A stretch of DNA of 33,474 nt from an uncultured Oscillospiraceae bacterium (lineage in GTDB: Bacteria; Bacillota; Clostridia; Oscillospirales; Oscillospiraceae), in NCBI GenBank assembly GCA_944386985.1, contig CALXDD010000031.1, positions 1 through 33,474 on the forward strand. Reading direction: 5' to 3'. The notes beneath the pieces were generated by a model. That model was not told where the DNA came from. It ran no database searches and worked only from the letters and a program-made list of their open reading frames with translations. Numbering within the stretch: position 1 is the first letter of the stretch; each line of letters opens with the position of its first letter. The translations under genes were made by a program, and so were the position numbers. Positions 2,292-30,165 of the stretch are shown in pieces.

Positions 2292-2330
2292 CCGCCGGCA
2301 GGGAGTGCTCTGCCGGCGGCTCTTTCTTTT
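2292..2330 (+). terminator. Rho-independent terminator of rpiB
   Basis: A perfect 10-bp stem CCGCCGGCAG/CTGCCGGCGG with an 8-nt loop is followed by TCTTTCTTTT. It lies 15 nt after the rpiB stop and immediately precedes the left end of repeat copy 1. Confidence 0.85.
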
Positions 2331-2331
2331 T

Positions 2332-3156
2332 GTCCGCTCAGTCGCCGGGACGGGCTGGTTTTGTCCTGCTGACGGAGGTGATTCTTTTTTGTCGGTACCC
2401 GACGGTGTACTGATTGGTGTTTTGCCTCCGGCGGCCGACTTTTCTCGCGGAAGAAAAGTAGGCAAAAGTCCGCTTAGAACCTACGGTTCTAAGGACTCCC
2501 TTGTCCTGACGTGTACTGTCAGTCCCCCCTGACTGTTGTTGGTCCTGTTGCCTCCGACGCTCCGTCGACGTGTCATGGTCCCCCTAATACCGCGCTTCGG
2601 CGCGCTGCCCTGGTGGGTTGACGATGGCTGCTGCGTCTAAAAGCCTTCCCCTGGGGGAAGGTGGCGCGCAGCGCCGGATGAGGGGAAGGGTATCGAAATT
2701 CAGCAGATTAACTCGGAGGCAGTTTCCTGTCAAATAATTAGGATTCATTTTTGGTTTTCCCTCCGAGTTGGTCTGGAGCTTCTCGGTGGCGTTCCCCTCA
2801 TCCGCCTCCTTCGGAGGCACCTTCCCCCAGGGGAAGGCTTATGTTGGGTGTGGTGTAATTGCAGAGGCTTCTACAACCACCAGGGGAGCGCGCTGAAGCG
2901 CGGAAACAGGGGAACTGTCACCCCCTTGCAGGGTCAGCCGCACAAGGTAACGACAACACGGAACGAGACTTCCCATAATAGGAACAAAAGGAGTCCTTAG
3001 AACCATTGGTTCTAAGCTGATTTTTGCCTACTTTTGTTCAGCGACAAAAGTAGGCCGCCGGATGCAAAACACCATTCGAAACACCGTCGGGTACCGACAG
3101 AAAAAACCCGCCTGCGTCAGCGGGCAAAAATAGCCCGTCCCGGCGACTGAGGGGAC
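2332..3156. repeat. Large two-armed interspersed repeat element, copy 1
   Basis: About 825 bp without a credible gene. The ends are inverted: the left end GTCCGCTCAGTCGCCGGGAC matches the right end reversed with one difference. Each arm (~400 bp) carries the same ordered modules: an end block, a GTCGG-TAC-CCGAC hairpin, a CCTCCGGCGG block, a CTACTTTT-type hairpin, a TTAGAACC-GGTTCTAA palindrome, GCGCTTCGGCGCGC, and CCTTCCCCTGGGGGAAGG. The last is followed by a second hairpin and GGATGAGGGGAA. AACTCGGAGG/CCTCCGAGTT pairs across the centre (about 2713-2780). No transposase is encoded. Copies 2 and 3 are at 11986-12877 and 29323-30165. Confidence 0.9.
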
Positions 3157-3194
3157 AAAAAATCCCCCATCCCGGAGGGGCAATATCCTCCCGG

Positions 3195-11066: not shown

Positions 11067-11963
11067 TTATTCCTCCTTTTGGGTGAGACCGGCAAGGCCG
11101 GTGAGGTCGAAGTCGGGGGTATAAGCGGCCCGGGCGGAGGCGGCGTCCTGGGTGTAGCCGCTTTGGATGCCCACATTTTCCATGTAGGCCGCGGCGGAGC
11201 GGTACTCCGCCCCGGTAACCCGGCGGGCAAGAAGGCCCTCCGCCCCGGGCTGGGGGGTATACTGGGCCATGAGGGACACCAGCACCTGGCCGGGGACGAA
11301 GGTTTCCGATATCCAGTCCAGCACAGCCTTGGTGTTGTTGAGGGCGCCGGGGAGCAGCAGGTGGCGGATGATCACGCCGGAGGTCATGAGGCCGTTGCTG
11401 TCGAAGCGGCAGGGGCCGGTTTGGCGGACCATCTCCCGGATGGCGGCGGCAGCGGTCTCGAAGTAGTCCGGGGCGGCGCTGTACCGCTCCGCCAGGGCGT
11501 TGTCGGCGTATTTGAGGTCCGGGAGATAGATCTGGATTTTACCCTGAAGGCTCTGGAGTGTCTCCAGGCGCTCATAGCCGCCGCAGTTGTACACCACCGG
11601 CACGGAGAGGGGCTCCTCCAGCACCGCCGCCACGGCGTGGGAGAAGTGGGTGGGGGTGACGAAGTTGATGTTGTGGGCTCCCTGGGCGATGAGGTCGAGG
11701 CACAGCTCCCGGAGCTGGGGGACGGTGATGGTTTTGCCGAAGCGGTCGTGGCTGATGGAGTGGTTCTGGCAGAAGACGCAGCGGAGGGAGCAGCCGGAGA
11801 AGAAGATGGCGCCGCTGCCCCGGGTACCGCTGATGCAGGGCTCCTCCCAGTGGTGGAGGGCGGCCCGGGCCACCACCGGCAGAGCGGGCATGGCGCAGAA
11901 GCCGCCGCCTTCTGTGTCGGTGCGCACCGCGCCGCAGCGGCGGGGACAGAGTGTACAAACCAT
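11067..11963 (-). CDS. PflX-like radical SAM protein (COG1313 type)
   Basis: A 298-residue radical SAM protein related to pyruvate-formate-lyase activating enzymes. The SAM cluster motif is GCSLRCVFCQN (C58, C62, C65). An N-terminal cysteine set, C3-C6-C10-C23 (CTLCPRRC), is typical of the PflX branch and may bind a second metal centre. Conserved stretches are NINFVTPTHF, VYNCGGYE, YLPDLKYAD and LMAQYTPQ. The natural substrate of this branch is not established, and no glycyl-radical enzyme is encoded nearby. It is the first gene of the operon, with AAAGGAG before the ATG. Its leader begins inside repeat copy 2. Confidence 0.87.
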   Translation of the reverse strand: MVCTLCPRRCGAVRTDTEGGGFCAMPALPVVARAALHHWEEPCISGTRGSGAIFFSGCSLRCVFCQNHSISHDRFGKTITVPQLRELCLDLIAQGAHNINFVTPTHFSHAVAAVLEEPLSVPVVYNCGGYERLETLQSLQGKIQIYLPDLKYADNALAERYSAAPDYFETAAAAIREMVRQTGPCRFDSNGLMTSGVIIRHLLLPGALNNTKAVLDWISETFVPGQVLVSLMAQYTPQPGAEGLLARRVTGAEYRSAAAYMENVGIQSGYTQDAASARAAYTPDFDLTGLAGLTQKEE

Positions 11964-11985
11964 AGAGGGGGCTCCTTTCTTTTTT

Positions 11986-12877
11986 GTCCGCTCAGTCGCC
12001 GGGACGGGCTGGTTTTTTGTCCTGCTGACGCAGGTGGTTCTTTTTTGTCGGTGGCCGACGGTGTACTGAATGGTGTTCTGCCTCCGGCGGCCTACTTTTG
12101 TCGCTGAACAAAAGTAGGCAAAAATCAGCTTAGAACCAAGGTTCTAAGGACTCCTTTGTTTCCTATTATGGGGAGTCTTGTACCGTTTATATTGTGAGAT
12201 TGTACGGCTGACACTGCAAGGGGGTGACAGTTCCCCTGTTTCCGCGCTTCGGCGCGCTCCCCTGGTGGTTGTAGAAGCCTCTGCAATTACACCATGCCCA
12301 AGCCTTCCCCGCGGGGGAAGGTGCCCCAGTGCGCACACTGGGGCGGATGAGGGGAACGCCACCGAAAAGCTCCAGACCAGCTCGGAGGGAAAATCAAAAA
12401 CCAATTTTTGACGGGAAGTTGCCTCTGAATCAATCTGCTGAATTTCGATACCCTTCCCCTCATCCGGCGCTGCGCGCCACCTTCCCCCAGGGGAAGGCTT
12501 TTAGACGAAACAGCCATCGTCAACCCACCAATGGAGCGCGCTGAAGCGCGGTGGTAGTCTGTACCGGACACGTCAACGGAGCGTCGGAGGCAACAGGAGT
12601 AACAATCGTCAGGGGGGACCATCGTTCCACGTCAGGACAAGGAATTCTTAGAACCATGGGTTCTAAGCGAGTTTTCGCCGAGCCGCAGCGAGGTGTTTCG
12701 GAGCGCAACCGAGCGCAGCGAGGCTCTTGGCGCGGAGATGGTGACTTTTTGCTCGCACAAAAAGTCACCCGCCGGAGGCAGAACAAGGGATCGAACCACC
12801 GTCGGGTACCGACAAAAAGACCCCGCCCTCGTCAGAGGGCAAAAGAAAACAGCGCCGGTCCCGGCAACCGAGGGGAC
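11986..12877. repeat. Large two-armed interspersed repeat element, copy 2 (inverted relative to copies 1 and 3)
   Basis: About 890 bp, non-coding. The left arm matches the right arm of copy 1 read in reverse: the same end block, GTCGG-TGG-CCGAC hairpin, CCTACTTTTGT/ACAAAAGTAGG stem, TTAGAACC palindrome and CCTATTATGGG-AGTCT segment. The right arm matches the left arm of copy 1, ending in GGGTACCGAC and GAGGGGAC. The right arm holds an extra ~50 bp of repeated GAGCGCAGCGAG-like sequence (about 12676-12732) absent from copy 1. The copy lies between the pflX-like start codon and the metK promoter. Confidence 0.9.
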
Positions 12878-12988
12878 AAAAGCCCCCCGGCGATTGAGGG
12901 CCATTATATCACACTTCCCGCCGGGAGGCAACGATGGCTCGCCGGGACAAAAAAGCCCCGATTTTGACAAAAAAAGAAGAAATTCCCC

Positions 12989-13017
12989 TTGACAGAACCA
13001 GAAAGAGACTCTATAAT
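12989..13017 (+). promoter_or_regulatory. Consensus sigma-A promoter for the metK leader
   Basis: Perfect -35 TTGACA, 17-nt spacer and perfect -10 TATAAT, about 30 nt upstream of the SAM riboswitch. This is the strongest promoter in the window. Confidence 0.93.
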
Positions 13018-13050
13018 AATTCCGGACATTCATCCAGGACAACTGCAGAC

Positions 13051-13143
13051 CTTATCAAGAGTGGCGGAGGGAACGGCCCGATGAAGCCACGGCAACCTGC
13101 TCATTCCGGCAAGGTGCCAATTCCGGCGGAAACGCAAGATGAG
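13051..13143 (+). ncRNA. SAM-I (S-box) riboswitch aptamer upstream of metK
   Basis: The leader has the S-box signature: CTTATCAAGAGTGGCGGAGG, GGCCCGATGAAGCC, CGGCAACC, and a closing GCAAGATGAG that pairs with CTTATC to form P1. SAM binding normally stabilises P1 and lets a downstream terminator form, turning off SAM synthesis when SAM is plentiful. The gene behind it is metK, which agrees. The expression platform is at 13144-13197. Confidence 0.95.
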
Positions 13144-13167
13144 GAAAACCCCCAAAGTTTTCACAAT

Positions 13168-15949: not shown

Positions 15950-15959
15950 ACCCACGTCT

Positions 15960-16199
15960 AAAGGCTGTGACAGGGAGGAGTATCCCCGTTTTGCCGGCGC
16001 AAGAGAGAGGGCGGTTGGTGCAAGCCCTTGCCGGGAGCGGAGAGAAGGCGCCCTGGAGCCGCGGCGCTGAATGGAGTAGGCGCTGCCGGTCCCCCGCCGT
16101 TATCGGGAACGAAGTGCGTACCAGCCAGGTACGAATTCAGGTGGAACCACGGACAGTATTTGTTCGCCCTGAGCCGAAAAACCGGCTCAGGGCGTTTTT
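15960..16199 (+). ncRNA. T-box leader upstream of glyQS
   Basis: About 240 nt of structured leader with T-box features: AGAGAGGGCGGTTGGTGCAA early, CTGAATGGAGTAGGCG in the middle, and an antiterminator bulge motif CAGGTGGAACCACGG (16138-16152). The leader ends in a strong terminator at 16165-16199. The bulge motif differs from the usual TGGNACCGCG by one base (A for G). Uncharged glycyl-tRNA would bind the leader and favour antitermination, raising glycyl-tRNA synthetase. Gly specificity is inferred from the downstream gene; I did not place the specifier codon with certainty. Confidence 0.9.
16165..16199 (+). terminator. T-box-controlled terminator before glyQS
   Basis: A perfect 12-bp stem CGCCCTGAGCCG/CGGCTCAGGGCG with A-rich loop, then TTTTT. 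It lies about 70 nt before the glyQS ATG. Confidence 0.92.
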
Positions 16200-16267: not shown

Positions 16268-17698
16268 ATGAAAAACACGGAAAAGACCATGGACAAGATC
16301 GTGGCCCTGTGCAAGGGCCGGGGCTTCATCTTCGCCGGCAGCGAGATCTACGGCGGCCTCGCCAACACCTGGGACTACGGCCCCCTGGGCGTGGAGCTGA
16401 AGAACAACGTGAAGAAGGCCTGGTGGAAGAAGTTCGTCCAGGAGAACCCCTACAACGTTGGTCTGGACGCCGCCATCCTCATGAACCCCCAGACCTGGGT
16501 GGCCTCCGGCCATCTGGGCGGCTTCTCCGACCCCCTCATGGACTGCAAGGAGTGCAAGGAGCGCTTCCGGGCCGACAAGCTCATTGAAGACTTCTGCGCC
16601 GAGCAGAACATCACCCTTGACAAGCCCATCGACGCCTTCTCCCAGGAGGAGATGAAGAACTTCATCGAGGAGCACAACATCCCCTGCCCCACCTGCGGCA
16701 AGCACAACTTCACCGACATCCGGCAGTTCAACCTGATGTTCAAAACCTTCCAGGGCGTCACCGAGGACGCCAAGAACACGGTGTATCTCCGGCCTGAGAC
16801 TGCCCAGGGCATTTTTGTCAACTTCCAGAACGTCCAGCGCACCACCCGCAAGAAGCTGCCCTTCGGCGTGTGCCAGATCGGCAAGTCCTTCCGCAACGAG
16901 ATCACCCCGGGCAACTTCACCTTCCGTACCCGTGAGTTTGAGCAGATGGAGCTGGAGTTCTTCTGCAAGCCCGGCACCGATCTGGAGTGGTTCCAGTACT
17001 GGCGCAGCTTCTGCCGGGACTGGCTGCTGGGCCTCAACATGAGCGAGGAGAACCTGCGGCTGCGTGACCACAGCCCCGAGGAGCTGTGCTTCTACTCCAA
17101 GGGCACCACGGACTTTGAGTTCATGTTCCCCTTCGGCTGGGGCGAGCTGTGGGGCGTGGCGGACCGCACCGACTACGACCTGACCCAGCACCAGAACACC
17201 TCCGGCAAGGACATGAGCTACTTCGATCCCGAGACCAACGAGCGGTATATCCCCTATGTGGTGGAGCCCTCCCTGGGCGCCGACCGCGTGGTGCTGGCCT
17301 TCCTGGTGGAGGCCTATGACGAGGAGGTCGTGGGCCAGGACAAGAACGGCAAGGACGACATCCGGGTGGTCATGCACTTCCACTCCGCTCTGGCCCCCTT
17401 CAAGGCCGCTGTGCTGCCCCTCAGCAAGAAGCTGAGCCCCAAGGCTGAGGAGATCTACCACGAGCTCAGCAAGTATTTCATGGTGGACTTTGACGACGCC
17501 GGCAGCATCGGCAAGCGGTACCGCCGGGAGGACGAGATCGGCACCCCCTACTGCATCACCGTGGACTTCGCCACCGTGGGCGACGAGAACACCCCCGCCG
17601 ACAACGCCGTCACCATCCGTGACCGGGACACCATGGCCCAGGTCCGGGTGCCTATCAGCGAGCTGAAGGCTTGGCTGGAGGAGAAGCTGGCCTACTAA
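16268..17698 (+). CDS. glyQS: Glycine--tRNA ligase, single-chain type
   Basis: A 476-residue class II glycyl-tRNA synthetase that charges tRNA-Gly with glycine and ATP. The start at 16268 (AAAAGGAGAATCCC before it) is chosen over an upstream in-frame extension that runs into the T-box leader. Motifs: [15 protein letters not shown] and [14 protein letters not shown] at the start, a zinc-type CPTCGKHNF insertion, motif 2 [19 protein letters not shown], and motif 3 VEPSLGADR. The C-terminal anticodon-binding domain contains [13 protein letters not shown] and ends EEKLAY. It is the single-chain form, not the two-subunit GlyQ/GlyS form. Its last ~16 codons are repeated twice downstream. Confidence 0.96.
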
Positions 17699-18072
17699 GA
17701 AGGCGCATTCCGGCGGTTCACCGCAGCAAGTGCGGCGTACAAGCATTTGCGGAGCAAATCTTGCCGCAGGGCGGATTCACTCCGCCCGAGGATGTAAAAT
17801 CCCGGGGTCCCCAAAAAATCCTTGATTTTTTGGGGTGCCTATCAGCGAGCTGAAGGCTTGGCTGGAGGAGAAGCTGGCCTATTAAGAAGGCGCATTCCGG
17901 CGGTTCACCGCAGCAAGTGCGGCGTACAAGCATTTGCGGAGCAAATCTTGCCGCAGGGCGGATTCACTCCGCCCGAGGATGTAAAATCCCGGGGCCCCCA
18001 AAAAATCCTTGATTTTTTGGGGTGCCCATCAGCGAGCTGAAAGCTTGGCTGGAGGAGAAGCTGGCCTACTAA
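17648..18072 (+). repeat. 187-bp tandem repeat that duplicates the glyQS 3' end (2 full units plus partial third)
   Basis: Unit 1 begins inside glyQS at GTGCCTATCAGCGAGCTGAA (17648), unit 2 at 17835, and a partial third at 18022. Each unit holds the last 16 codons of glyQS with a stop (TAA ending at 17698, 17885 and 18072). In the full units, ~137 nt of spacer follows, with a hairpin CCCCAAAAAATC/GATTTTTTGGGG. Units 1 and 2 differ at only a few positions (for example TAC/TAT and GGT/GGC). Copies 2 and 3 of the tail have no start of their own. They look like products of slippage or unequal exchange at the GGG(G)TGCC sequence shared by the gene and the hairpin end. Confidence 0.92.
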
Positions 18073-29299: not shown

Positions 29300-29322
29300 G
29301 CCGTGCTGACGGGGCGGGAGCT

Positions 29323-30165
29323 TTTTGTCCCGCTGACGCAGGGGAATTCTTTTTTGTCGGTACCCGACGGTGTACTGAATGGTGTTCTGCCTCCGGCGGG
29401 TGACTTTTCTCTCGGACGGACTACCGAACTGCAGTCTCCTCGCGGCATAGCCGCTGTGGCCTACGCTAAAAACATGCCGCCGGCATGTTTTCTTGACGCT
29501 GCGGGGTTCTAAGAATTCCCTTGTCCTGACGTGGAACGATAGTCCCCCCTGACTATTGTTACTCCTGTTGCCTCCGACGCTCCGTTGACGTGTCATGGTT
29601 CCCCTAATACCGCGCTTCGGCGCGCTCCATTGGTGGGTAGACGATGGATGGTTCGTCTAAAAGCCGTATCCCTAAGCCTTCCCCTGGGGGAAGGTGTCCC
29701 AGTGCGCACACTGGGACGGATGAGGGGAAGGGTATCTGGAAATACCGACTTTCTATAGAAGGTCATTTCTCTTTTGTAGACGGCACACAATTTTTCCACT
29801 TTACGGAAGTCTGGAATTTTTTGATGGCGTTCCCCTCATCCGCCTCCTTCGGAGGCACCTTCCCCCCAGGGGAAGGCTTTGGCCTGGCGTAATTGCAGGA
29901 GCCCCTACGACCACCAGGGCAGCGCGCTTAAAGCGCGGAAACAGAGGAACCCGGACACCCCATCGCAGCGTCACCCGTACCAACTCCCAATACCAACGGA
30001 ACAGGACTTCCAGATTTAGGAAACAAAGGAGTCCTTAGAACCTTGGTTCTAAGCGGACTTTTGCCTACTTTTCTTCCGCGAGAAAAGTAGGCCGCCGGAG
30101 GCATGACAAGGTGTCGAAATACCGTCGGCCGCCGACAAAAAGGAAAACCTCCCGTCAGCAGAGCT
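29323..30165. repeat. Large two-armed interspersed repeat element, copy 3
   Basis: About 840 bp, non-coding, in the same orientation as copy 1. The left arm has the GTCGGTACCCGAC hairpin and the CCTCCGGCGG block. An unshared ~100-bp segment (about 29410-29505) then replaces most of one hairpin. The GTCCTGACGTGGAACGATAG stretch, GCGCTTCGGCGCGC and CCTTCCCCTGGGGGAAGG follow. The right arm repeats these in reverse, with CTACTTTTCT/AGAAAAGTAG and GTCGGCCGCCGAC. The outer end blocks are more divergent than in copies 1 and 2. The central ~110 bp (A/T-rich) differs from the other copies. It lies between two convergent terminators. Confidence 0.88.

Follow-up and report, generated by a model that had tools for sequence, protein, structure and literature searches.

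Composite intergenic hairpin repeats with a putatively DUF559-linked, REPIN-like core in an uncultured Oscillospiraceae bacterium

In gut Clostridia, few intergenic sequences are as common as short GC-rich hairpin repeats, and we know of no motor that has been assigned to them. Small repeats with names such as RUP, BOX, CREE and ERIC-type are set beside MITEs, the BIME/REP clusters of enterobacteria are terminator-like mosaic arrays of palindromic units located downstream of genes, and Vsr-like homing endonucleases were reportedly described by Dassa et al. in 2009. For the REPIN/RAYT system, two papers (PMC8049555, PMC3733652) describe a one-copy, vertically inherited enzyme gene serving dispersed paired hairpins. 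The window analysed here (the whole 33,474-nt stretch, which is contig C31 of a 2.99-Mb, 83-contig assembly designated G000) carries three large hairpin-rich elements out of about 45 related intergenic elements in the genome. Our best reading, to which we give a probability of roughly 0.5, is that these are nested composite repeats of a non-autonomous kind that recombination homogenises, their REPIN-like core being linked to DUF559 through a putative role of that nuclease. A central small hairpin element, of the same kind as the one that brackets a one-copy Vsr-like nuclease gene, suggests a nuclease-linked cousin of REPIN repeats.

The initial annotation had placed three two-armed, non-coding copies in the window, and alignment confirmed them as real and homologous, at positions that were right or short by a few bases, with the same ordered modules in both arms of all three. 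The best limits are 2327–3161 for copy 1 (plus strand; alignment and genome search), 11980–12881 for copy 2 (minus strand as to its inner part, with the right outer end reversed) and 29310–30165 for copy 3 (plus strand, between two convergent genes). The inverted ends were confirmed as well, as a 40-nt pair in copy 1 (2327–2366 and 3122–3161, 90% complementary) and in weaker form in copy 2; as read from the sequence, the outermost module is missing in copy 3. Copy 1 is made up of a left, L-type arm (2327–2640, plus strand), a string of small hairpins with inward terminator-like hairpins at its outer end, a core (2641–2840, plus strand) and a right, R-type arm (2841–3161, plus strand). Its core is a DUF559-type cassette pair, with ends of the same kind as the DUF559 element at locus L083, and consists of a 5′ two-hairpin cassette ending CGGATGAGGGG (2641–2687, plus strand) and an inverted 3′ two-hairpin cassette (2792–2840, minus strand). 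The corresponding cores lie at 12300–12500 (minus strand) in copy 2 and 29674–29879 (plus strand) in copy 3. An intrinsic-terminator-like hairpin with a T-tract stands just before copy 1 (2292–2326, plus strand), downstream of a gene ending at 2276, and one end of copy 2 adjoins what is probably the ribosome-binding site of a gene on the minus strand (11067–11963). A home-made codon-usage gene caller placed no gene within any of the three copies, in agreement with the earlier view that they hold no protein-like frame. Other features of the window include a T-box leader (15958–16174, Rfam) upstream of a glycyl-tRNA synthetase gene with class II synthetase domains (profile match), a region at 17646–18072 where the 3′ end of this gene is followed by two more copies, in tandem and nearly identical, of a 187-bp unit (the final copy being incomplete), and a SAM riboswitch (13049–13145, Rfam) upstream of an apparent metK.

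Searching G000 with copy 1 gave at least 175 matches (40 of 88 first-look candidates were scored), several of which join separate loci at E below 1e-200. The core pattern CGGATGAGGGGAA occurs 49 times and its reversed control 0 times, and the outer-arm pattern, with up to 2 mismatches, 67 times against 0 for its reversed control, so that chance is far exceeded. By blastn over the fetched stretches, 48 clusters were obtained, 41 of them of at least 500 bp and scored for both arms; the 7 shorter clusters were left out of the arm-scoring, orientation, alignment and pairing analyses. Not all 48 are full elements, two being the ends of the DUF559 element in L083 and those in L087 and L088 being short or cut, and one further copy, in L134, lies beyond the 48. 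A discrete non-coding repeat family with many terminator-like hairpins is supported, presumably kin of the short repeats seen as spurious proteins in gut Clostridia. The density of one element per ~11 kb proposed earlier describes a dense spot, the genome-wide figure being about one per 60–70 kb; contig C35 (5 elements in 19 kb, one cut by the contig end) and contig C8 (7 in 94 kb) are dense likewise. Several contigs end inside an element, and because draft metagenome-type assemblies break at repeats, the numbers of copies are minimum values and their spread over the contigs is biased. Almost no full elements turned up on the largest contigs (C1–C5) in these searches and many on the short ones, an unevenness that is partly assembly bias and perhaps real clustering.

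The elements are composite, with two arms of ~300 bp built of small hairpins around a core of ~200 bp, and polar, with one L-type and one R-type arm in the 41 scored copies, one orientation outscoring the other in every case. An arm read from the outside inward starts with at least one terminator-like hairpin with its T-tract. Next come a hairpin with GTCGGTACCCGAC, one of the type CCTACTTTT..AAAAGTAGG or its alternative GTGACTTTT..AAAAGTCAC, and one of the type CTTAGAACC..GGTTCTAAG, then sequence specific to the arm, and innermost a hairpin with CGCGCTTCGGCGCG. The ends of the core are two-hairpin cassettes of the form CCTTCCCC..GGGGAAGG, second hairpin, CGGATGAGGGG, and a core with both ends is present in 31/41 copies, giving the REPIN arrangement of two dispersed inverted units with a short variable spacer; 9/41 are without a core (having a different loop, or only one hairpin of the CCTTCCCC..GGGGAAGG type) and 1/41 has a single end. 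The core ends stand in reverse order in a few copies (L055, L073), and the inner segment is inverted relative to the outer ends in several, including copy 2. Other congeners, among them G008 (L112:8390–9605 and 12170–13146), have intergenic arrays that are just as large and hairpin-rich but diverged in sequence, some at the same sites.

With gene starts and ends taken from the home-made caller, the elements sit between gene ends and starts, often within tens of bases of both, and none of the 48 clusters overlaps a predicted gene by more than 60 bp. In co-directional gaps of G000, the sense of the element matches that of the genes in 23/28 cases (one-sided p = 0.0005). The agreement in the relatives G004 and G006 together is 10/15, many of these being the same sites and so not independent. 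No correlation of orientation with GC skew or replication strand was found (20/41). Terminator-like hairpins number 10, 13 and 4 in window copies 1, 2 and 3 with their flanks, against 1.8, 2.2 and 1.4 expected, and in eight copies the element ends no more than 16 bp from the predicted downstream start codon. These observations, together with the intergenic position of 48/48 clusters, would suit regulatory parts, that is, bidirectional terminators or 5′-leader elements selected to insulate the neighbouring genes; against this reading stand the weaker orientation agreement in relatives, the strand tests below and two copies that are simply missing in the congeners G008 and G009, and we regard it as improbable.

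Pairing was analysed on an alignment of the 41 copies, using 171 pairs predicted on both strands. Over all 171 pairs, with no clear preference for either strand, G-U counted 211 versus 174 for A-C (p = 0.066), a figure that argues against the regulatory reading, as do the like folding energies of the two strands (p = 0.35); in local pairs the counts were 92 versus 66 (p = 0.046), a weak excess that would fit that reading, and in long-range pairs 119 versus 108. Structures predicted from a single strand necessarily favoured the G-U pairs of the strand used (588 and 244 for one strand, 328 and 705 for the other). Rfam gave no element match in scans of the whole window at gathering scores and of copy 1 at permissive E-values, the weak microRNA matches of copy 1 lying far under gathering scores. 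The pairing and strand tests speak against a strand-specific structured RNA, which the initial annotation had offered as one possibility; as the main reading it was rejected on the strand tests, the weak local G-U excess excepted, and on the Rfam scans. Local hairpins co-vary within copies (complementarity of pairs with both columns variable 0.852, versus 0.540 ± 0.025 when permuted between copies); they are far more complementary within copies, and therefore it is the local hairpins that are the units kept or exchanged whole. Arm-to-arm pairs gave 0.900 within copies and 0.900 permuted, so that the large palindrome represents an old inverted layout rather than maintained pairing, and long-range pairing by selection or arm correction was rejected on this equality; in the 6 long pairs whose two columns both vary, the values were 0.559 and, permuted, 0.584.

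Site sharing was assessed by searching own sites in the sister species G006 regardless of elements. All 7/7 such sites with adjacent flanks in G006 hold an element (window copy 2, four inner C35 sites and two C8 sites), and because they do, the elements are not freely hopping. For copies 1 and 3 and the first C41 site, the flanks are not adjacent in G006; copies 1 and 3 are located where G006 gene order differs, and in the G006 flanks that were fetched, to the right of copy 1 and to the left of copy 3, there is no element. Two sites filled in G000 and G006, C35 site 5 and the one directly upstream of dnaA on C41 (element L094:13295–14089; dnaA by PF00308), are empty by length and alignment in G008 and G009, an insertion polymorphism between relatives such as MITEs have, which may reflect either gain in this clade or loss in G008/G009. 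No target-site duplication was discernible, the empty sites coming from more distant species only. In the C35 region, what had looked like an insertion specific to G006 reads like a protein gene and not like an element. Derivation of the whole element from a plasmid or phage was rejected, with no plasmid match and one phage record matching a core over ~55 bp.

These sites bear on whether the elements are ordinary MITEs, in which the long arms would be terminal inverted repeats moved in trans by some transposase and the DUF559-type core would merely have inserted in some copies. The inverted arms, the gene-free and intergenic character, the dozens of copies and the two sites empty in G008 and G009 are all as expected for MITEs, and the elements are short and non-coding, with terminal inverted repeats; on the other side are the 7/7 filled sites in G006, the lack of a visible target-site duplication, and the outcome of a search for a partner transposase with such ends, which covered one family (PF01797, the Y1 (HUH) REP-associated transposase) and found it in 3/11 genomes of the genus and in neither of the copy-rich G004 and G006. 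Recent full-length twins were likewise not found, the 15 best own pairs being 80.7–90.0% identical over 618–934 bp (median identity 81.5% and maximum 97.4% among the 881 own pairs that match over at least 200 bp). We consider an ordinary MITE unlikely. The more general proposal of a non-autonomous mobile element, made in the initial annotation, stands in part: the two sites empty in distant congeners and the DUF559-type terminal cassettes of the core favour it, and the sites and mostly the orientation held in common with the sister species searched, with neither target-site duplication nor transposase partner found, do not. The outcome that it had set against a discrete family, namely that every relative has the elements at identical sites and nothing points to movement, was half observed: the sites are shared by sister species, but the sequences appear to have been swapped between sites.

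The apparent swapping emerged from a comparison of 15 site pairs (12 involving G006 and 3 involving G004) that represent 12 own sites and match in both flanks; they were used for sequence comparison and not for site sharing because the loci had been fetched for holding elements. The median own paralogue was closer than the orthologue in 13/15 site pairs and the orthologue closer in 2/15, and since the paralogue so often prevails, the family evolves in concert. Plain descent expects the orthologue to rank first among the relative's copies, and it did so in only 1/15 pairs (ranks with duplicates removed: 12, 14, 4, 14, 7, 1, 12, 14, 7, 16, 4 and 10 of 17 in G006; 8, 2 and 8 of 11 in G004). Orientation, determined by hand, was the same in 10 of the pairs, flipped in 4 and unclear in 1, and the L-type module of own copies scored low in most G006 and G004 copies. 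A right-arm tree was built from 71/78 rows, leaving out two duplicate G006 loci and five rows of less than 165 bases, and required 6 label changes for own copies versus 22.0 when shuffled, 10 versus 15.6 for G006 and 7 versus 9.6 for G004; one orthologous pair still groups (L075 with G006 L099), as does one G006–G004 pair. Together, these results amount to concerted evolution at old sites, which has not gone to completion and is most marked when this species is set against the pair of G004 and G006. That sites are shared while sequences evolve in concert suggests that homogenisation of dispersed repeats can reach across a whole bacterial genome, and the elements may also shape the genome, to judge from the altered order of genes around copies 1 and 3.

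A gene associated with the core cassettes was found on contig C83 (L083), where an open frame next to an RNase H gene (PF00075) is flanked on its two sides by core-type cassettes that point towards each other. The encoded protein is a DUF559 (PF04480), Vsr-like nuclease (95.2 bits, curated cut-off 20.6) and the sole match in G000, and the core cassette ends of the repeats resemble those of this element. The frame (L083:713–1822, 369 codons) runs on without a stop across both cassettes and into RNase H, so annotators may fuse DUF559 and RNase H proteins. Beyond the motif, the cores of the window copies share about 5–7 bases with L083 at each end (GGATGAGGGGAAGGGTA; GGCGYTCCCCTCATCC), a likeness that is suggestive only; nothing within the core could be recognised as a remnant of DUF559. 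Among 149 relatives, 42 have DUF559, and within the genus it is confined to G000, G004 and G006, with one copy each. Because the RNase H neighbour is common to these three and, by shared flanks, to G032 from another genus, the gene looks vertically kept, and a one-copy gene bracketed by repeat units, as in REPIN/RAYT, is present in G000, G004 and G006 with DUF559 in place of the RAYT. The residues D52, E63, D65 and H69, which we take from the nuclease superfamily to be of catalytic type, are invariant in 27/27 aligned domains (alignment without L158, L170, L172 and L177).

Cassette bracketing was examined at 29 of 30 DUF559 loci returned (L177 dropped, being too near a contig end) together with L083, and a flanking inverted repeat scored above the best of 60 shuffles at 28/30 (L161 and L174 fail). 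With a fixed threshold of 20, leaving out L159, L170 and L177 as too near contig ends, such repeats were present at 26/28 loci versus 0/109 shifted windows taken from these loci. Cassettes of this design but of other letters recur, e.g. CTCCCTTGTGTAAAGGGAG, second hairpin, TGAGGGATTGT, and the exact core motif (one mismatch allowed) is correctly placed on both sides in only 8/40 loci scanned. From 45 phage and plasmid records, nine DUF559 loci were chosen, of which L180, L183 and L184 pass the shuffle test, L179 narrowly, and L181, L182, L185, L186 and L187 fail, L187 having the motif on a single side. DUF559 genes across Clostridia, on one phage scaffold and on two plasmids of other phyla thus lie between two-hairpin inverted repeats whose sequences vary (L149–L178, L180, L183, L184). 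Genomes were called core-rich where the motif CGGATGAGGKG exceeded its control by at least 10, a threshold set after seeing the table and counted by hand, which gave 21/149. DUF559 is present in 16/21 core-rich versus 26/128 other genomes (Fisher p = 1e-6) and, within the genus, in 3/3 versus 0/8 (p = 0.006), related genomes being treated as independent in both tests. Five core-rich genomes have no DUF559 match (G038, G050, G071, G103, G139), and the 26 DUF559 genomes that are not rich in the core motif may be set beside the existence of other cassette sequences. Eight congeners are without both DUF559 and core enrichment; since G008 and G009 among them carry arm-type elements, the arms do not need DUF559. 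Arm cassettes were present in 11/22 loci of relatives scanned, with three facing pairs (L112 twice, L119), and no predicted gene, hence no gene-bearing version of the outer arms, lay between any of the three. Among the papers listed in the literature covered, with subscription papers mostly outside its scope, none was recognised as tying DUF559 to repeats or describing this family.

In the preferred reading, the core would be a miniature, REPIN-like form of the DUF559 element, and the one-copy, vertically kept nuclease would nick or cut the cassettes. Repair of such breaks from other copies would copy cassettes and neighbouring modules between sites, spreading cores into existing hairpin arrays, and gene conversion would homogenise arms and modules over dispersed sites, with inversions and rearrangements as possible by-products of the repair. 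As a side effect, the terminator-like hairpins of the outer ends, some of which abut the start of the next gene, may insulate neighbouring genes. Counting against the preferred reading are the five core-rich genomes with no DUF559 match and the 26 DUF559 genomes not rich in the motif, the loci failing the shuffle test, the short likeness of the core to L083 with no recognised remnant, the arm-type elements of G008 and G009, the 2/15 site pairs with the orthologue closer and the absence of a discernible target-site duplication. The same homogenisation could come about with no dedicated enzyme, if quasi-palindromes break at replication forks (e.g. by SbcCD), RecA-mediated ectopic repair homogenises them and DUF559 is a passenger that lands on the same hairpins. 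Concerted evolution, the inner segments flipped against the outer ends, the differing gene order at copies 1 and 3 with element-free G006 flanks, and the arm-type elements of DUF559-less G008 and G009 agree with this, but it leaves unexplained both the cassette bracketing of nearly every DUF559 locus tested in the order and the tendency of core-rich genomes to have DUF559, and we judge it a minor contender. A wider proposal, which we advance tentatively, is that DUF559 and double-hairpin cassettes constitute a replicator system widespread in Clostridia, and perhaps in other phyla and phages with other cassette sequences. A domesticated one-copy Vsr-type nuclease would there maintain and spread tens to hundreds of miniature elements by cut-and-repair copying, as a RAYT-independent counterpart of REPINs that nests in larger intergenic hairpin arrays and homogenises them. 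The DUF559 link offers a concrete candidate motor that is directly testable, and a nuclease family that is catalogued to this day as a domain of unknown function would acquire a role.

Compared with known systems, the family resembles MITEs in being non-coding, intergenic and of inverted structure, possibly as an internal-deletion derivative of a gene-bearing element; it differs in its size, which we take to exceed that usual for MITEs, in its nested, polar arms of L and R type, and in sharing sites while evolving in concert, with no transposase or target-site duplication shown. Mosaic arrays of palindromic units, terminator-like and downstream of genes, are common to it and the BIME/REP clusters, from which the fixed two-armed layout with a central element and the different linked enzyme set it apart. 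Vsr-like homing endonucleases belong to the same nuclease superfamily, and break-repair copying would be homing-like, but here there is no intron or intein and the unit has its own flanking hairpins and miniature forms. A single Y1 transposase match, with an in-frame stop, was seen in G000 (L137:1501–1857, contig C23), with no link to the elements seen, and a RAYT-driven REP was rejected on the absence of PF01797 from G004 and G006. The likeness to REPIN/RAYT, as described in two papers (PMC8049555, PMC3733652), lies in paired inverted short hairpin units dispersed between genes and in a one-copy, vertically kept nuclease-type gene bracketed by units of the same kind. The gene here, however, is a Vsr-like DUF559 and not a Y1 HUH transposase, the units are two-hairpin cassettes ending CGGATGAGGGG, the hairpin base bears no GTAG tag (by eye, in the copy 1 core cassettes at 2641–2687 and 2792–2840 only), and most cores are nested in arrays of 0.6–1.2 kb. 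The family is not a member of REPIN/RAYT, yet by analogy may work alike.
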